Shown one piece after another: positions 3,802-57,236 of a stretch of 64,000 bases of DNA; positions within the stretch are counted from its first letter, which is position 1; the number at the start of each line of letters is the position of its first letter. This stretch comes from Bacteroides salyersiae WAL 10018 = DSM 18765 = JCM 12988. GTDB lineage: Bacteria; Bacteroidota; Bacteroidia; Bacteroidales; Bacteroidaceae. The notes beneath the pieces were generated by a model that made no database searches, was not told the origin of the DNA, and worked only from the letters and a program-made list of their open reading frames with translations. The stretch covers positions 1,424,693 to 1,488,692 of the forward strand of contig NZ_KB905466.1 in the NCBI RefSeq assembly GCF_000381365.1. The letters run 5' to 3'. The translations under genes were made by a program, and so were the position numbers.

Positions 3802-3810
3802 TAAAAGAGT

Positions 3811-3972
3811 AGTAAGTATTTAAGTAGTGAGTAGTTAAGTAGTCAAGTAGTAAGTAGTAAGTAGTTAAGTGGTAAGTAGATAAGTAGGTAAGTAAGAGAA
3901 ATACATTAAGCAAATCATTTCTACTTGACTACTTAACTACTCACTACTTGACTACTTAACTACTTAGCTACA
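3811..3972. repeat. Degenerate short-unit repeat forming a long hairpin
   Basis: A run of imperfect units of the type AGTAGTTAAGTAGTCA is followed by its inverted counterpart. The arms 3822-3850 and 3921-3949 are perfectly complementary over 29 bases, separated by about 70 bases of the same repeat. It lies exactly between the convergent ends of the RDD gene (plus) and the small acidic-protein gene (minus), so it could act as a bidirectional transcription stop or mRNA 3' end. Related but differently spelled elements occur at 11.2, 17.4, 55.0 and 57.1 kb. Confidence 0.75.
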
Positions 3973-11230: not shown

Positions 11231-11286
11231 TATTAGCCACTAAGTCCCAGCTGCCAGCTACTAAATTCTAACTACTGACTACTCAA
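11231..11286. repeat. Short degenerate repeat in the yraN leader
   Basis: Imperfect units of the CTACTAA / CTGACTACT type (for example CCAGCTGCCAGCTACTAA) fill the leader just upstream of yraN. The spelling resembles one arm of the elements at 3.8 and 55.0 kb, but no long opposite arm is present here, so it may be a half-element. Confidence 0.45.
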
Positions 11287-17430: not shown

Positions 17431-17569
17431 ATTTAGTTGAAAGTTGAGAGTTGAAAGTTGAAAGTTACTATTCAGCGTGATTGCATAAGTAATTTTCCAC
17501 TTTTAAGTGACGGGTAACTCTCAACTATCTAAGAATTCTCAACTTTCAACTCTCAACTTTCAACTAAAT
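17431..17569. repeat. Long inverted repeat of AGTTGAAAGTTGAG units ending at the rsgA start codon
   Basis: The arms 17431-17461 and 17539-17569 are complementary over about 31 bases and each consists of imperfect 7-base units of the AGTTGAA/AGTTGAG kind, separated by about 77 bases. The right arm ends 5 bases before the rsgA ATG, so an RNA hairpin here would bury the translation start region of rsgA, or end the frr transcript. It is the same architecture as the 3.8-kb element with a different unit sequence. Confidence 0.8.
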
Positions 17570-25392: not shown

Positions 25393-25498
25393 GAAACCAA
25401 TGGTTCCATCGGCATGGAACTGTTGGTTTCGTTCGTATGGAACTCTTCGTTTCATCCGTATGGAACCAATGGTTTCTCCGAAAGAAACCTTTCGTTTC
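25393..25498. repeat. Tandem array of five GGAAC-N5-GTTTC mini-hairpins
   Basis: Five consecutive units of about 22-23 bases, each with a small imperfect palindrome: GAAACcaatgGTTCC, GGAACtgttgGTTTC, GGAACtcttcGTTTC, GGAACcaatgGTTTC and GAAACctttcGTTTC, joined by spacers such as ATCCGTAT. It lies between the PL10 terminator and the duplicated accessory locus. The array looks like a protein-binding or RNA-hairpin array rather than coding sequence; the small open frame over it is low quality. Confidence 0.7.
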
Positions 25499-25611
25499 AT
25501 ACGGGGAAACAAAATCAAACACAACATCTACAAAAACAGAGCAAGAAGCTTCATCCTATTGATTTTCATTAATCTTTATGTGTTTTTCCAAATTTCCCTC
25601 GATGAATTAAT

Positions 25612-53900: not shown

Positions 53901-54993
53901 CGAAGAAGACATAAAACAGCTTTTTGTACGCTTCTATCAGGGAAAAGACTCAAAAGAAGGAAGCGGCATCGGGCTATCCTATGTGAAAGTACTGGTGGAA
54001 CTGCAAGGAGGAAAGATCGAAGCCTATAATAATGAGAAAACAGGGGCCACTTTCTGCTTCGAATTGCCCGAAAGAGAAGATAAAAAAAATCCTTCTGAAC
54101 AGTCCGTCAATATATCACTCAACGATGTGCTCCGTTTTTCCGACAGAGAAAGACAAGAACAAAAACCATCCCAAGAGGAAGAGAATTTCGACACACGCAA
54201 CTATTCAATACTAATAGTAGAAGATAATATTGAACTGTCCAACTTTCTCAAAGAGGCCTTGAAGGAGCACTTCCAAAAAGTATATACAGCCAACAACGGA
54301 GAAGATGCATTCAACATTGCCACACAAAAATTACCCGATATCATTGTCAGCGATATCATGATGCAACAAGGCGATGGTCTGGAACTATGTCAACAAATAA
54401 AAAGGCAAGAAAAAACCTGTTTCATTCCCGTGGTGCTACTCACTGCGCGAACGGACATGGAAAGTACAGCATCCGGCTATAAATCGGGAGCTGATATCTA
54501 TCTTACCAAACCTTTTGAAGTAGATGAATTAATAGTTATAGTACGCAATTTATTGAAAAATCGTAAGATATTACAAAAACACTATCGTAACTATGTGAGT
54601 AGTATATCCTCCTATCCAAATATAGAAGAAGAACCGAGTAATGCGGACGAAAGATTTCTCTTCAAACTAAATAATATTATCATAGAGAATCTAAGCAACA
54701 ACCAATTGGACGTAGATTTTATAGCAGACAAAATGGGCATGTCGCGAACCACGCTCTACAACAGAGTAAAAGCAGTAAATTATGTGGGTATCAACGACTG
54801 CATCAATAATTTCCGTATAGAAAAAGCCCTTCAAATGCTACGTGAAACAGATTGCAATATGCTCGAAATATCAGAAGCGGTAGGGTTTAGCAGCCAACGT
54901 TATTTTAGCACATTCTTCAAAAAAATGGTAGGTTGTACCCCATCTAAATACAGAGAAGAAAATCAGAAACAGGAGTTAGAAGCAGGAAGTTAA
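50992..54993 (+). CDS. Hybrid two-component system regulator (HTCS) of the PUL
   Basis: The product has 1333 residues from ATG 50992 (MKNYGNVLTSLCRFVGCVLL, a signal peptide). Periplasmic sensor: two seven-bladed Reg_prop propellers (repeats such as GIIWIGTQMGLNRFD, LWIATDGGGIARLN, MYIGTDGGGINRLN) and a Y_Y_Y domain, then a membrane helix at about 768-786. Cytoplasm: HisKA with His818 in INMSHELRTPLM, HATPase_c (NLLANALKFTPEG, GSGIGLSYVKVLVELQGG), a receiver with Asp1121 in IIVSDIMMQQGDG, and an AraC-type helix-turn-helix to the end (GFSSQRYFSTFFKKMVGCTP). It should sense an oligosaccharide released in the periplasm and activate the divergent PUL. All phosphorelay residues are present. Confidence 0.95.
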   Translation: MKNYGNVLTSLCRFVGCVLLMQCSVSSLHAFPDYYFKQLSLQEGLSQTTVNCVLKDYKGIIWIGTQMGLNRFDQYELKNYFYDSYSPNSLPDNDICFLKEDSLLNLWIGTQEGLAIYNRGEDNFTLIYHNNAPVQAKAACLLTDGILFAGTGLWIYSYADRQLHSLPIINKGKAINDYFKYIKPWKKNTYVVGTQWKGVYLYHTDSHQLTPFTSCKKQHISSYFIDKQKNLWLSPYGEGMICYDVNGQEIARYSTQNSDLCNDIILDMLIYKDELWIATDGGGIARLNLADRTFRTIEQQSGNNNSLPSNSIKSLYVDHSQNLWAGTIRNGLLNIREVYMHTFQDVPLNNLYGLSNKITLCLYEEDGFMYIGTDGGGINRLNQTENIFKHYPSCSKEKVVSIAGYNSEELIASFYGKGLYFFNKRTGLCRPCNFISPNLREQINSMGIAINIYQFSPGKYYILAEQVYIYDLKTARLTPVQMTQIRKDTDTPISNLKVIASNDSITYLYGVKNIFCLNNRTQTLSPIYYSDFNITINCVCCDSQGDFWIATNRGLLRYNRHNKSAEKIETSLFSEARTTVYDPTDRIWIGARNMLFAYSISDKRFTIFDENDGALANEYMYTNVPISQSGDIYQCGVNGLLRICKNYPFKDGNIPTIKLMDIELNGATITNQVSATGKLTIPYHYTSLIIKLIRNEEDVFRRRIYRFHISGLARDIESYAPSLALYSLSPGHYEVSVSCSNRDGSWTEMTPILNLEIPTPWWQSPYLKLALIILFIIICIGYVTYYNRKKERKLQWELKEHKQNMNEEKIRFLINMSHELRTPLMLIYAPLKRLLNKEAITDNKLKEQLESICRQVRRMKNLIEMVLDVRRIEMGQKVLHLSTCTFNNWLEEIAGSFTNEYANKNVRLLYNFDNRIKEWTFDTSKCEMIVSNLLANALKFTPEGNSVTLTTQKEKGNIRISVIDEGIGLDEEDIKQLFVRFYQGKDSKEGSGIGLSYVKVLVELQGGKIEAYNNEKTGATFCFELPEREDKKNPSEQSVNISLNDVLRFSDRERQEQKPSQEEENFDTRNYSILIVEDNIELSNFLKEALKEHFQKVYTANNGEDAFNIATQKLPDIIVSDIMMQQGDGLELCQQIKRQEKTCFIPVVLLTARTDMESTASGYKSGADIYLTKPFEVDELIVIVRNLLKNRKILQKHYRNYVSSISSYPNIEEEPSNADERFLFKLNNIIIENLSNNQLDVDFIADKMGMSRTTLYNRVKAVNYVGINDCINNFRIEKALQMLRETDCNMLEISEAVGFSSQRYFSTFFKKMVGCTPSKYREENQKQELEAGS

Positions 54994-55121
54994 GAGTTAG
55001 GAGTTGGGAGTTAGAATAAGAAAATAGCGAAAGGCATCCTCTACTTACTACTTGACTACTGGCTACTAACTACTATATTCCAGCTCCTAAATTCTGACTC
55101 CTAACTCCCAAATTCCAACTC
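54994..55121. repeat. Degenerate short-unit repeat between convergent genes
   Basis: AGTTAGGAGTTGGGAGTTAG-type units on the left are met by inverted CTCCTAACTCCC / CTACTTGACTACTGG units on the right, giving an imperfect hairpin. It separates the convergent regulator and DUF4954 genes, as the 3.8-kb element separates another convergent pair. Parts of the right arm share the CTACTTGACTACT spelling with the 3.8-kb element. Confidence 0.65.
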
Positions 55122-57113
55122 CTACCCCAACTGTCCGATACGATTTATCAGTTCGTCACCCAATGCATTCTTATCATCGATATGCTCCAGTACGGCAGTT
55201 ACAAATGGATTACTTTCAAAATCTCCACGAACTTGCTCGAAATCAAGTTTCATCTCATCTTGCGACCCGTCAGCTCCAAAACCAGTCATTGATGACATGG
55301 AGAATTCCTTACGTGCATCGTTATACACCATACGATCCAGCCCGATAACAGCTTCTTTCCAGGATTTTACAATACAGATAATGTCTTTGGCGGTAATTGT
55401 CTCCGGATCAAGACCATAAAACTCCTGAATCTTATTATAAGCCCATGTCCACTCATAGGTATAGTAATTGTTGTGCATCTCGGCAAAGCGGGCATTTATT
55501 TCTTTCAAACGATTAATTTCACCACTTTCTATCCCGGCCATCAGCTTTTCTATTTCACTCTTCGGAGCGATCAATCCGGATATGTCAACCCATTCTCCCA
55601 AACCTATCTCCGTATCCGGTTTCAGCCGTTGGCGAATTTCCTCGTTACTCTGGAACTTAATACCTTCAAGACGTTTGATGATAGAATTGCCCAAAAATTT
55701 ATGAATGGCTATCTCATAATAACGAATACCGCTATTCAGGGAAGAATTCTTAATCTTGGCACTCTGATAAGAATAAGTTTCGGAAGTTTCGCCGGATACA
55801 CGTTTCAAATCCTTTAAAATAAAACGCCCCTTAAACATTTTCTGAATAGTATATGGGCTCAGCAAATTATAATTAATATAATCGAGCTTGTTCGGATCTT
55901 TACGTTTATCGCGTTTCGGCCATTTCTGGGCATCACGAATGGTACCCACACTCCGTAAGTTCACTCCCGGTACAAGGAAAGTGGTATTCTGCTGTTCGAT
56001 CAGATAAGAAAACGGCAGATTGGATGTATCGGCATGGTTCACATGACGTCCCATTACCAATGAAAATGCACCGACACGGGCCGGCCAGAGGATATAAGAA
56101 TCCGAAGTGGTCTTCGCTCCACGTTCCAATGTACCTTGGTGAATAGGACCGAGTTTATACATGTGGTTACTCTGATTAGACCCGGAACCGGCATTCATAA
56201 ACGAAAACATACCGGCAATCAGCAAGGTCGACTTATGATGTGTAACCGTATAAGGGCCGGCGAAAATAGCACAAGCCTCTCCGTTTTCTCCCTGACAATT
56301 ACTGAAAAATAAGGAATCGGAAGCCGAATAATTATGCCCTAACTGACAAGCTTGTCCCACAAAACAACGAGTCAGCAGCGCACCGTCATCCACGTGTGAT
56401 CCGGAAGAAATAATGAAATCGTCACAGATCACCCCGTGTCCGATATGAACCGGTGCCACCGCATTACTATTGACACTACCATTCGATAAACGGCATGTAC
56501 CGCAAATATGACAACAATCGCCTATCCGTACATTTTTAATGGAACCGGTATTAAGTATCATCACATGATTACCGATTGTCCCCACAGTGGAAGCATGCTT
56601 ATTAGAATAATAATCGGTAATCTTCTTCATACGGTCTATCAGCTCCGGACGATGACGATATAAAGCTAAGATATAAGCCTGATGCGCTGAAAGTTTGTCA
56701 TTAATCAGCACTTCCCGGCCACCCGTTTCATTTAGAACAGCAACTTCTACTCCATTGCCAAAAGTCGTACGACCATCTACCAAAATGATATCTACATTTT
56801 CAATAAATGCATTATCCCCAATTTCATAGTTCGCAATGTAGTTCTGAATATTTTCAATGCAGCAGTTATCCCCTACTGTCACATTGTGCAGTGTCACATG
56901 ACGTAGGCCGGCATGTTTTTTTATTCCACCCGGCAATGTAAAATCCGAATGAAAAACTCCTAACTTTACTTCACCCGAAAAGCGGGTGTGATGAACGTAC
57001 TCGGTGGTAAAATCTTCTGCTACAAAGACTTTTCCCCAATCATCCGCCAGACACGACTGACTCTTTAACTGAAGAATTTCGTCTTCAGTCAATCCTCGGT
57101 AAATTTTTCCCAT
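55122..57113 (-). CDS. DUF4954 family protein (left-handed beta-helix, nucleotidyltransferase-like)
   Basis: The product has 663 residues from ATG 57113 (MGKIYRGLTEDEILQLKSQS); the frame is open 17 codons further, but homology and composition favour this Met. Hexapeptide-type repeats dominate the middle (VTLHNVTVGDNCCIENIQNY, IGDNAFIENVDIILVDGRTT, NVRIGDCCHICGTCRLSNGS, HVDDGALLTRCFVGQACQLG), typical of acyltransferase or GlmU-like beta-helices. The C-terminal third is helical. DUF4954 is common in Bacteroidetes and spirochaetes; activity is unproven. It lacks an obvious nucleotide-binding loop. It lies 123 bp downstream of hflX. Confidence 0.88.
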   Translation of the reverse strand: MGKIYRGLTEDEILQLKSQSCLADDWGKVFVAEDFTTEYVHHTRFSGEVKLGVFHSDFTLPGGIKKHAGLRHVTLHNVTVGDNCCIENIQNYIANYEIGDNAFIENVDIILVDGRTTFGNGVEVAVLNETGGREVLINDKLSAHQAYILALYRHRPELIDRMKKITDYYSNKHASTVGTIGNHVMILNTGSIKNVRIGDCCHICGTCRLSNGSVNSNAVAPVHIGHGVICDDFIISSGSHVDDGALLTRCFVGQACQLGHNYSASDSLFFSNCQGENGEACAIFAGPYTVTHHKSTLLIAGMFSFMNAGSGSNQSNHMYKLGPIHQGTLERGAKTTSDSYILWPARVGAFSLVMGRHVNHADTSNLPFSYLIEQQNTTFLVPGVNLRSVGTIRDAQKWPKRDKRKDPNKLDYINYNLLSPYTIQKMFKGRFILKDLKRVSGETSETYSYQSAKIKNSSLNSGIRYYEIAIHKFLGNSIIKRLEGIKFQSNEEIRQRLKPDTEIGLGEWVDISGLIAPKSEIEKLMAGIESGEINRLKEINARFAEMHNNYYTYEWTWAYNKIQEFYGLDPETITAKDIICIVKSWKEAVIGLDRMVYNDARKEFSMSSMTGFGADGSQDEMKLDFEQVRGDFESNPFVTAVLEHIDDKNALGDELINRIGQLG

Positions 57114-57236
57114 AATGTAAGTAATATAATGATGTGCCGATACAACAATGTATCCATACGACAATTGGCCGCACTATATTATTTACTAATACACCGCACG
57201 GCAATTGGCACATTGGCGTATTGACACATTAAATAA
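57114..57236. repeat. Short imperfect repeat between hflX and the DUF4954 gene
   Basis: Units around GACAATTGGCCG and CGGCAATTGGCA, plus CACATTGGCGTATTGACACATTA, form a loose inverted and direct repeat. It resembles the other intergenic elements of this window in style but not in sequence. It would lie in the mRNA between two minus-strand genes. Confidence 0.5.

Follow-up and report, generated by a model that had tools for sequence, protein, structure and literature searches.

Short-unit hairpins at gene ends of Bacteroides salyersiae are probably ORF-less copies of foldback elements that resemble the 23S rRNA intervening sequences

Results

Three short-unit hairpins in gene gaps

The window, which is the whole stretch of 64,000 nucleotides of B. 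salyersiae DNA that was analysed, contains three hairpins in the gaps at 3.8, 17.4 and 55.0 kb (Table 1). The inverted-repeat scan of the window found inverted arms of short units at 3813-3958 (41 nt, 93% complementary), 17431-17569 (36 nt, 94% complementary) and 54991-55124 (24 nt, 83% complementary), and the tandem-repeat scan detected tandem units at all three positions, so the shared architecture suggested by the original prediction was found at each site. RNA folding was far better than that of shuffled sequences at 3.8 kb (z -9.1) and 17.4 kb (z -10.1) and moderately better at 55.0 kb (z -2.8). Weaker hairpins had also been proposed at 11.2 and 57.1 kb; these gaps proved to hold an array on a single side only, and their folding was no better than that of the shuffles (z 0.4 and -1.1). 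The hairpins at 3.8 and 55.0 kb lie between convergent gene ends, in line with the two such positions predicted, and the 17.4-kb hairpin lies between the co-directional genes frr and rsgA.

Table 1. Positions of hairpin arms and short-unit arrays (window coordinates, except in the last row, where our locus numbers are given)
Feature	Position	Strand	Description
3.8-kb hairpin, 5' arm	3808..3894	+	AGTAGTTA-class units, about 8 nt
3.8-kb hairpin, 3' arm	3918..3971	+	complementary units; RNA fold z -9.1
One-sided array without partner arm	11240..11284	-	AGTAGTTA/AGTAGTCA-like units; fold z 0.4
frr-rsgA hairpin, 5' arm	17431..17466	+	AGTTGAA-class 7-nt units
Stretch like the dispersed core	17468..17484	+	CTATTCAGCGTGATTGC vs CYATGCRGCRTNATRGC, compared by eye
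frr-rsgA hairpin, 3' arm	17534..17569	+	RNA fold z -10.1
55.0-kb hairpin, 5' arm	54965..55014	+	GGAGTTAG-class units; overlaps end of upstream gene
One-sided array in loop of 55.0-kb hairpin	55041..55074	-	AGTAGTTA-like units
55.0-kb hairpin, 3' arm	55084..55124	+	RNA fold z -2.8
One-sided array without partner arm	57200..57230	+	GTGCCAAT class, reads GGCACATT; fold z -1.1
In-frame AGTTGAA arrays	L004:954-2117 (carA), L007, L028, L030, L056, L057; L065 doubtful		

No Rfam family was matched in the window. Terminator-like sites (a G+C-rich stem and a short loop followed by a T run) numbered zero at the three hairpin gaps, and intrinsic terminators of the usual form were therefore rejected as an identity for them. 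A further inverted and tandem repeat, with 22-23-nt units (GAAACCAATGGTTTCATCCGTATGG-like), was seen in a gene gap at 25393-25500 of the window.

Dispersed unit classes and a shared core

The genome comprises 5.31 Mb in 6 contigs, and a sample of 464 kb, made up of the window and 20 spaced 20-kb stretches, was scanned. The strict scan returned 27 inverted repeats, including some that are not of the short-unit kind, compared with 0, 1 and 0 in three Markov controls. The laxer scan of the same sample returned 45, of which 13 had unit periodicity. Short-unit hairpins are real and are confined to a minority of gaps; with 13 periodic ones in 464 kb, most gaps were without one, an outcome that the original prediction had named as counting against it.

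The 17.4-kb unit belongs to a dispersed class. For one AGTTGAA-class 13-mer, the genome holds 57 copies in forward and 51 in reverse orientation, a count for which the reversed-pattern control is void because the pattern equals its own reverse. From 100 of these 108 places, with the window's own excluded, 31 loci were read, one of them with a masked stretch. Unit dimers were present in both directions at 18 of the 31 loci, only forward at 8 and only reverse at 5, and in all 18 two-direction loci the forward units precede the reverse ones. Many of these loci have a common core between the arms. A genome-wide search for the core as CYATGCRGCRTNATRGCGCAGC, in which up to three mismatches were allowed, gave 35 places, and the reversed pattern gave none. 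In the 29 readable loci out of 30 fetched (L090 was cut), the arms that enclose it belong to at least four unit classes (AGTTGAA, GTGCCAAT, GGGAGATG-like and AGTGATT), and some of these loci have fewer than two good arms. The short hairpins have the features of MITEs, that is, terminal inverted repeats, no ORF and dispersed copies.

The unit sequence varies by site, as predicted, with several unit classes sharing one architecture. The further claim that each site makes its own unit is not supported, given the 57 and 51 copies of the 13-mer, the core common to at least four classes and the presence of the classes at protein-coding elements (see below). Nor are the units copies of one known repeat, the outcome that would have counted against the prediction, yet several of them are copies of dispersed families.

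Some other features were observed among these loci. L082 is chimeric, with a GGGAGA-class 5' arm and an AGTTGAA-class 3' arm around a single core. In core loci L071-L100, positions 2, 7 and 15 co-vary in part (CTATGCAG..ATAG, CCATGCGG..ATGG), perhaps as small stems. G+C-rich hairpins with CCTCTCCCCAACCCTCTCC arms (L047:10068-10126, L047:11137-11257 and L050:17244-17355) form a dispersed class without a clear 7-nt period.

AGTTGAA arrays were also found inside genes. At 7 of the 31 loci, they are located in reading frames that are open across the array, giving peptides such as QLSTFNFQL. In carA (L004), residues 147-206, which contain the insert, lie between two aligned domains and amount to 60 residues, compared with 29 in a human relative.

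IVP genes between inverted arms

One AGTTGAA foldback encloses an ORF of the family 23S_rRNA_IVP (PF05635), here called IVP; the window hairpins have no IVP ORF inside. Searching the genome with PF05635 gave 5 genes, all of which also matched TIGR02436 ('four helix bundle protein'). All five are located between inverted short-unit arms, with a different unit class in each (AGTAGTTA, AGTTGAA, ATTTATG, GTGCCAAT and ATTTACG). Three of them match the unit class of an array in the window (3.8 kb, 17.4 kb and the one-sided array at 57.1 kb), and no IVP gene in this genome accompanies the main unit class of the 55.0-kb hairpin. In this genome, the AGTTGAA, AGTAGTTA and GTGCCAAT classes are shared by IVP genes and ORF-less hairpins.

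Across the genus, 34 of 60 genomes had an IVP match (55 matches in total), and of the 34 loci fetched, the 31 with full flanks were scored for arms. The score exceeded 15.5 at 27 of the 31 (the misses being L106, L113, L127 and L131). This threshold was set at the 95% level among 930 permuted pairs of flanks, the upper 1% of which is inflated by orthologous loci. In the controls, 15.5 was exceeded by 3 of 4000 intervals drawn at random from this genome and 1 of 4000 from relatives, by 1 of 657 ORFs of 90-170 aa, that one being an IVP gene, and by 1 of 27 frr loci and none of 26 loci of the RDD gene.

When public genomes were scanned with an alignment of one IVP subfamily, at least 580 relatives were found, of which the best 80 were taken. 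Among these best 80 of at least 580, 60 of the 73 scorable IVP loci in named genomes exceeded 15.5, and the period was 7 or 14 in all 54 above-threshold loci with clear periodicity. The titles of the above-threshold loci in this set named Bacteroidota, Oscillospiraceae and other Clostridia, Verrucomicrobia, Leptospiraceae, Desulfohalobiaceae and Thiotrichaceae, although single taxon assignments may be wrong because many of the loci are metagenome bins. In 86 armed IVP elements, the best period was 7 in 82 and 8 in 4, in a test that tried 7 first and slightly preferred it.

The core occurred at 2 places in ORF-bearing elements, which is not above chance (2 in shuffles); therefore, the descent of the short hairpins from such elements rests on their shared arms, and a reading of the core as an internal remnant of ORF-bearing elements was rejected. 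A half-core adjoins the 3' arm in three related-looking elements (L301, L312 and L328), and two further half-core matches are away from the arms.

A PADLOC search for defence systems gave no match among seven cargo proteins. The Avd model of diversity-generating retroelements matched one of the five IVPs with 34.2 bits, far under the cut-off of 80; an Avd identity was rejected, and the match is a weak hint at reverse-transcriptase partners. The sole PDB relative found for IVP was 2rld, with five chains, and the available text of PMC4990558 describes the Xanthomonas S23 protein as a pentameric ring. In Flavobacterium columnare, a four helix bundle gene flanked by those for guanylate kinase and an adenylyltransferase is filed under phage sequences in the part of PMC5524665 that was available.

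GxxExxY genes and the relation between arm unit and protein

A second gene family, GxxExxY (PF13366), was found between arms in related genomes. It is present in 23 of the 60 genus genomes, with no PF13366 match in this one, and the two proteins checked matched TIGR04256. After two fragment loci had been left out, 26 of the 28 scored loci exceeded 15.5 (misses L260 and L264); this threshold was taken over from the IVP loci, as the permuted control was unusable with many loci being orthologous (95% level 108.5). The autocorrelation of the arms peaked at 9 with 0.42 in GxxExxY elements, less sharply than the 0.73 at 7 in IVP elements. One hairpin of this genome, at L038:405-469, has CACAGATT-like units, the class that surrounds the GxxExxY genes of relatives.

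The similarity of the arm units rises with IVP identity (r 0.37; r 0.21 for pairs less than 65% identical; 0 of 999 permutations as high), based on 59 of the 60 named loci, L337 being excluded by a stricter end rule. This tracking indicates that arms and protein travel or evolve together. Arm mismatches of the G-U and A-C types numbered 74 and 60 in IVP elements and 20 and 18 in GxxExxY elements. As there is no clear excess of G-U and hence no clear RNA-strand bias, the folded strand could be DNA or RNA.

The coupling between the unit classes in a genome and its resident IVP is loose. In G016, the AGAAGTTA array accompanies the IVP and recurs on three further contigs; G015 and G025 have it once each, and the B. 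salyersiae genome does not have it. AATTGAC arrays are present in 16 of the 60 genomes (reversed pattern: 0 in all 60), including 30 arrays in G006, which has an AATTGAC IVP, 36 in G047, where no IVP was found, and 19 in G038, whose IVP is of another class. G035 has 56 overlapping AGTTAGT-type places, and its only IVP is also of another class. A strict rule by which a unit class needs a resident IVP of that class is ruled out by G047, G038 and G035.

The same gaps in other species

The frr-rsgA gap was examined at 50 loci, of which 43 were analysed (3 were cut and the rsgA start was not found in 4). A hairpin above all 100 shuffles was present in 32 of the 43, 9 gaps were shorter than 40 nt, and 2 had no hairpin; G038, where a hairpin is visible by eye, is not part of this count. 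Some of the 32 hairpins are plain, without clear units (for example in G030, G065, G064 and G011). By-eye reading gave AGTTGAA as the unit class here, AGTAGTTA in G084 (Frr 98% identical), AATTGAG/AATTAAA in G115 (Frr 97%), and AATGAAG, AATTGAC or AGCTACG in other genomes; automatic grouping gave 9 groups, the largest of which (16) lumps classes through single linkage. In G061 (Frr 96%), the gap has no element. The prediction that the unit would differ at the same gap was thus confirmed, with the comparison made between species. The different classes in close species argue for turnover and not for the simple descent of one element, and since the loops differ along with the arms, replacement of whole elements is favoured. 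Of the active generating process that had been suggested, turnover therefore stands, and manufacture of units at the site does not, as the units belong to dispersed families.

For the 3.8-kb gap, the upstream gene is present in 28 of the 60 genomes, and among the 27 loci inspected by eye (one of them cut) a short-unit hairpin was seen only in this genome and, with another unit class, in G032; the downstream neighbour gene varies among several genomes. At the adk-obg gap (30 loci, one cut and the obg start not found in six), IVP elements are present in G000 and G043, G056 has an ORF-less hairpin in which GTGCCAAT units accompany the core, and the gap is only 11-32 nt in seven genomes. An IVP element occupies this gap in G016 as well. 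The three IVPs are orthologous by their flanks, and the other two share 76 and 80% identity with that of G000. Their units differ, both arms having changed together, which shows that arms can also change in place.

Discussion

Starting from the arms, their association with cargo genes, the unit period, the tracking of unit and protein, the class differences at one gap and the copies inside genes, all of which were observed, we consider that the hairpins are probably ORF-less, MITE-like copies of foldback elements resembling intervening sequences (IVSs), which are repeatedly replaced at the same gene ends. A complete element would consist of an inverted arm of tandem 7-nt (sometimes 8-nt) units, an IVP gene and the complementary arm, and in a second lineage the enclosed gene would be GxxExxY and the arm units about 9 nt long. 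The short hairpins, which contain no gene, would have the same kind of arms, in several classes and often around the shared core. Certain positions at gene ends may repeatedly gain and lose elements of different classes, with the result that close species would hold different classes in one gap. The elements may move, the cargo protein may recognise the unit of its own arms in a folded single strand, either DNA at the replication fork or RNA, and host functions could carry out the copying and insertion.

The hairpins could alternatively be generated in place, with slippage expanding a short unit and template switching copying it across a quasi-palindrome, so that each gap makes its own hairpin. 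The variation of units at one gap between species would fit this, and at adk-obg both arms of orthologous elements changed their unit while the IVP stayed, making rewriting in place possible. However, this process leaves the same unit and core at many sites unexplained, as well as the association with IVP and GxxExxY genes and the fixed period, and at frr-rsgA the loops differ together with the arms; we therefore regard it as unlikely. Selection for hairpins that function as RNA, be it as terminators, RNase III sites or the 3' ends of mRNAs, with a sequence that drifts while pairing is kept, is a slightly weaker candidate. The strong folding, the position at gene ends and the hairpins in 32 of 43 frr-rsgA gaps, some lacking clear tandem units, are what it would lead one to expect, but terminator-like sites are absent from the three gaps, 9 of the 43 frr-rsgA gaps are short and have no hairpin, the arms show no clear G-U over A-C excess and copies sit inside open frames. 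It is very improbable that the arrays serve to bind a chromosomal protein of the IHF/HU-like or nucleoid kind, which is what has been proposed for the paired arrays of Geobacter. Those arrays look alike in the available text of PMC2700814, being opposite-strand pairs at variable distance with one heptanucleotide class, but a regulator might be expected to retain a single site sequence, and here the units vary both inside a genome and from one genome to another, tracking the identity of the IVP that they enclose.

Beyond the reading of the hairpins as MITE-like copies, we tentatively propose an undescribed class of mobile elements, in which an IVP, of a ring-forming family, or a GxxExxY protein, which we take to be PDDEXK-like, would be the mobility factor that reads its own unit array in the folded strand. 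The unit length (7-8 or about 9 nt) would be set by the protein family, the unit sequence would co-evolve with the protein, and the elements would live off gene ends in several bacterial phyla. To our knowledge, the IVP/four-helix-bundle and GxxExxY proteins are small families whose function is not known. Most of the examined copies of both lie within foldback arms of family-typical period, which gives both a testable job: judged by their sequence context, they may be part of small selfish elements, with the arm unit of their own element as a possible binding site. The results also show that these genomes have a rapidly changing supply of hairpins between genes and of peptides inserted in frame.

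Several known systems resemble these elements. REPINs with their RAYT genes, and MITEs, are short palindromic non-autonomous copies that rely on a gene elsewhere; the partner here would be an IVP protein and not a known transposase. The IVP elements are the putative autonomous partner in that they share the unit class of the hairpins, with the reservations that IVP is no known transposase and that the coupling is loose. RAYT/REPIN itself was rejected, as there is no Y1 transposase (PF01797 had 0 matches in this genome, compared with hits in 5 of 14 control genomes). A likeness between the units and integron attC boxes was also considered and set aside. Drosophila foldback transposons have inverted ends of short tandem repeats, and Rickettsia palindromic elements are in-frame palindromic inserts in genes; compared by description, both differ in host and in having no IVP gene. 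No paper tying IVP or GxxExxY genes to short-unit inverted arms was found in a literature search that covered few subscription papers.

The IVS of 23S rRNA is described in the available text of PMC4990558 as a selfish stem-loop with complementary ends and a small ORF of the S23/IVP family in its loop. The elements described here share the complementary, stem-forming ends and, in five elements elsewhere in the genome, the IVP ORF. They differ from the IVS, as far as that text describes it, in being free-standing between or inside protein genes and not in an rRNA gene, and in having arms of tandem short units, many ORF-less copies and several unit classes. As the window hairpins lie between protein genes and match no Rfam family, we call them IVS-like and do not file them as rRNA IVSs. 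The paired sites of classes 2 and 3 in Geobacter metallireducens likewise consist of tandem short units on opposite strands at variable distance; in the part of PMC2700814 that was available, they are interpreted as regulator sites and no cargo gene is named. The TAACTGA arrays of Beggiatoaceae, Cyanobacteria and Bacteroidetes are also intergenic heptamers, whose reverse complement in another phase (AGTTATC) fits the form of the IVP arm units. They differ in being reported, in the available text of PMC4679880, as direct repeats with one inverted case, and a word search of that text for 'helix bundle' and '23S' gave 0. The proposed class of elements would unite these heptamer arrays, known piecemeal from Geobacter, Beggiatoaceae and Bacteroidetes.
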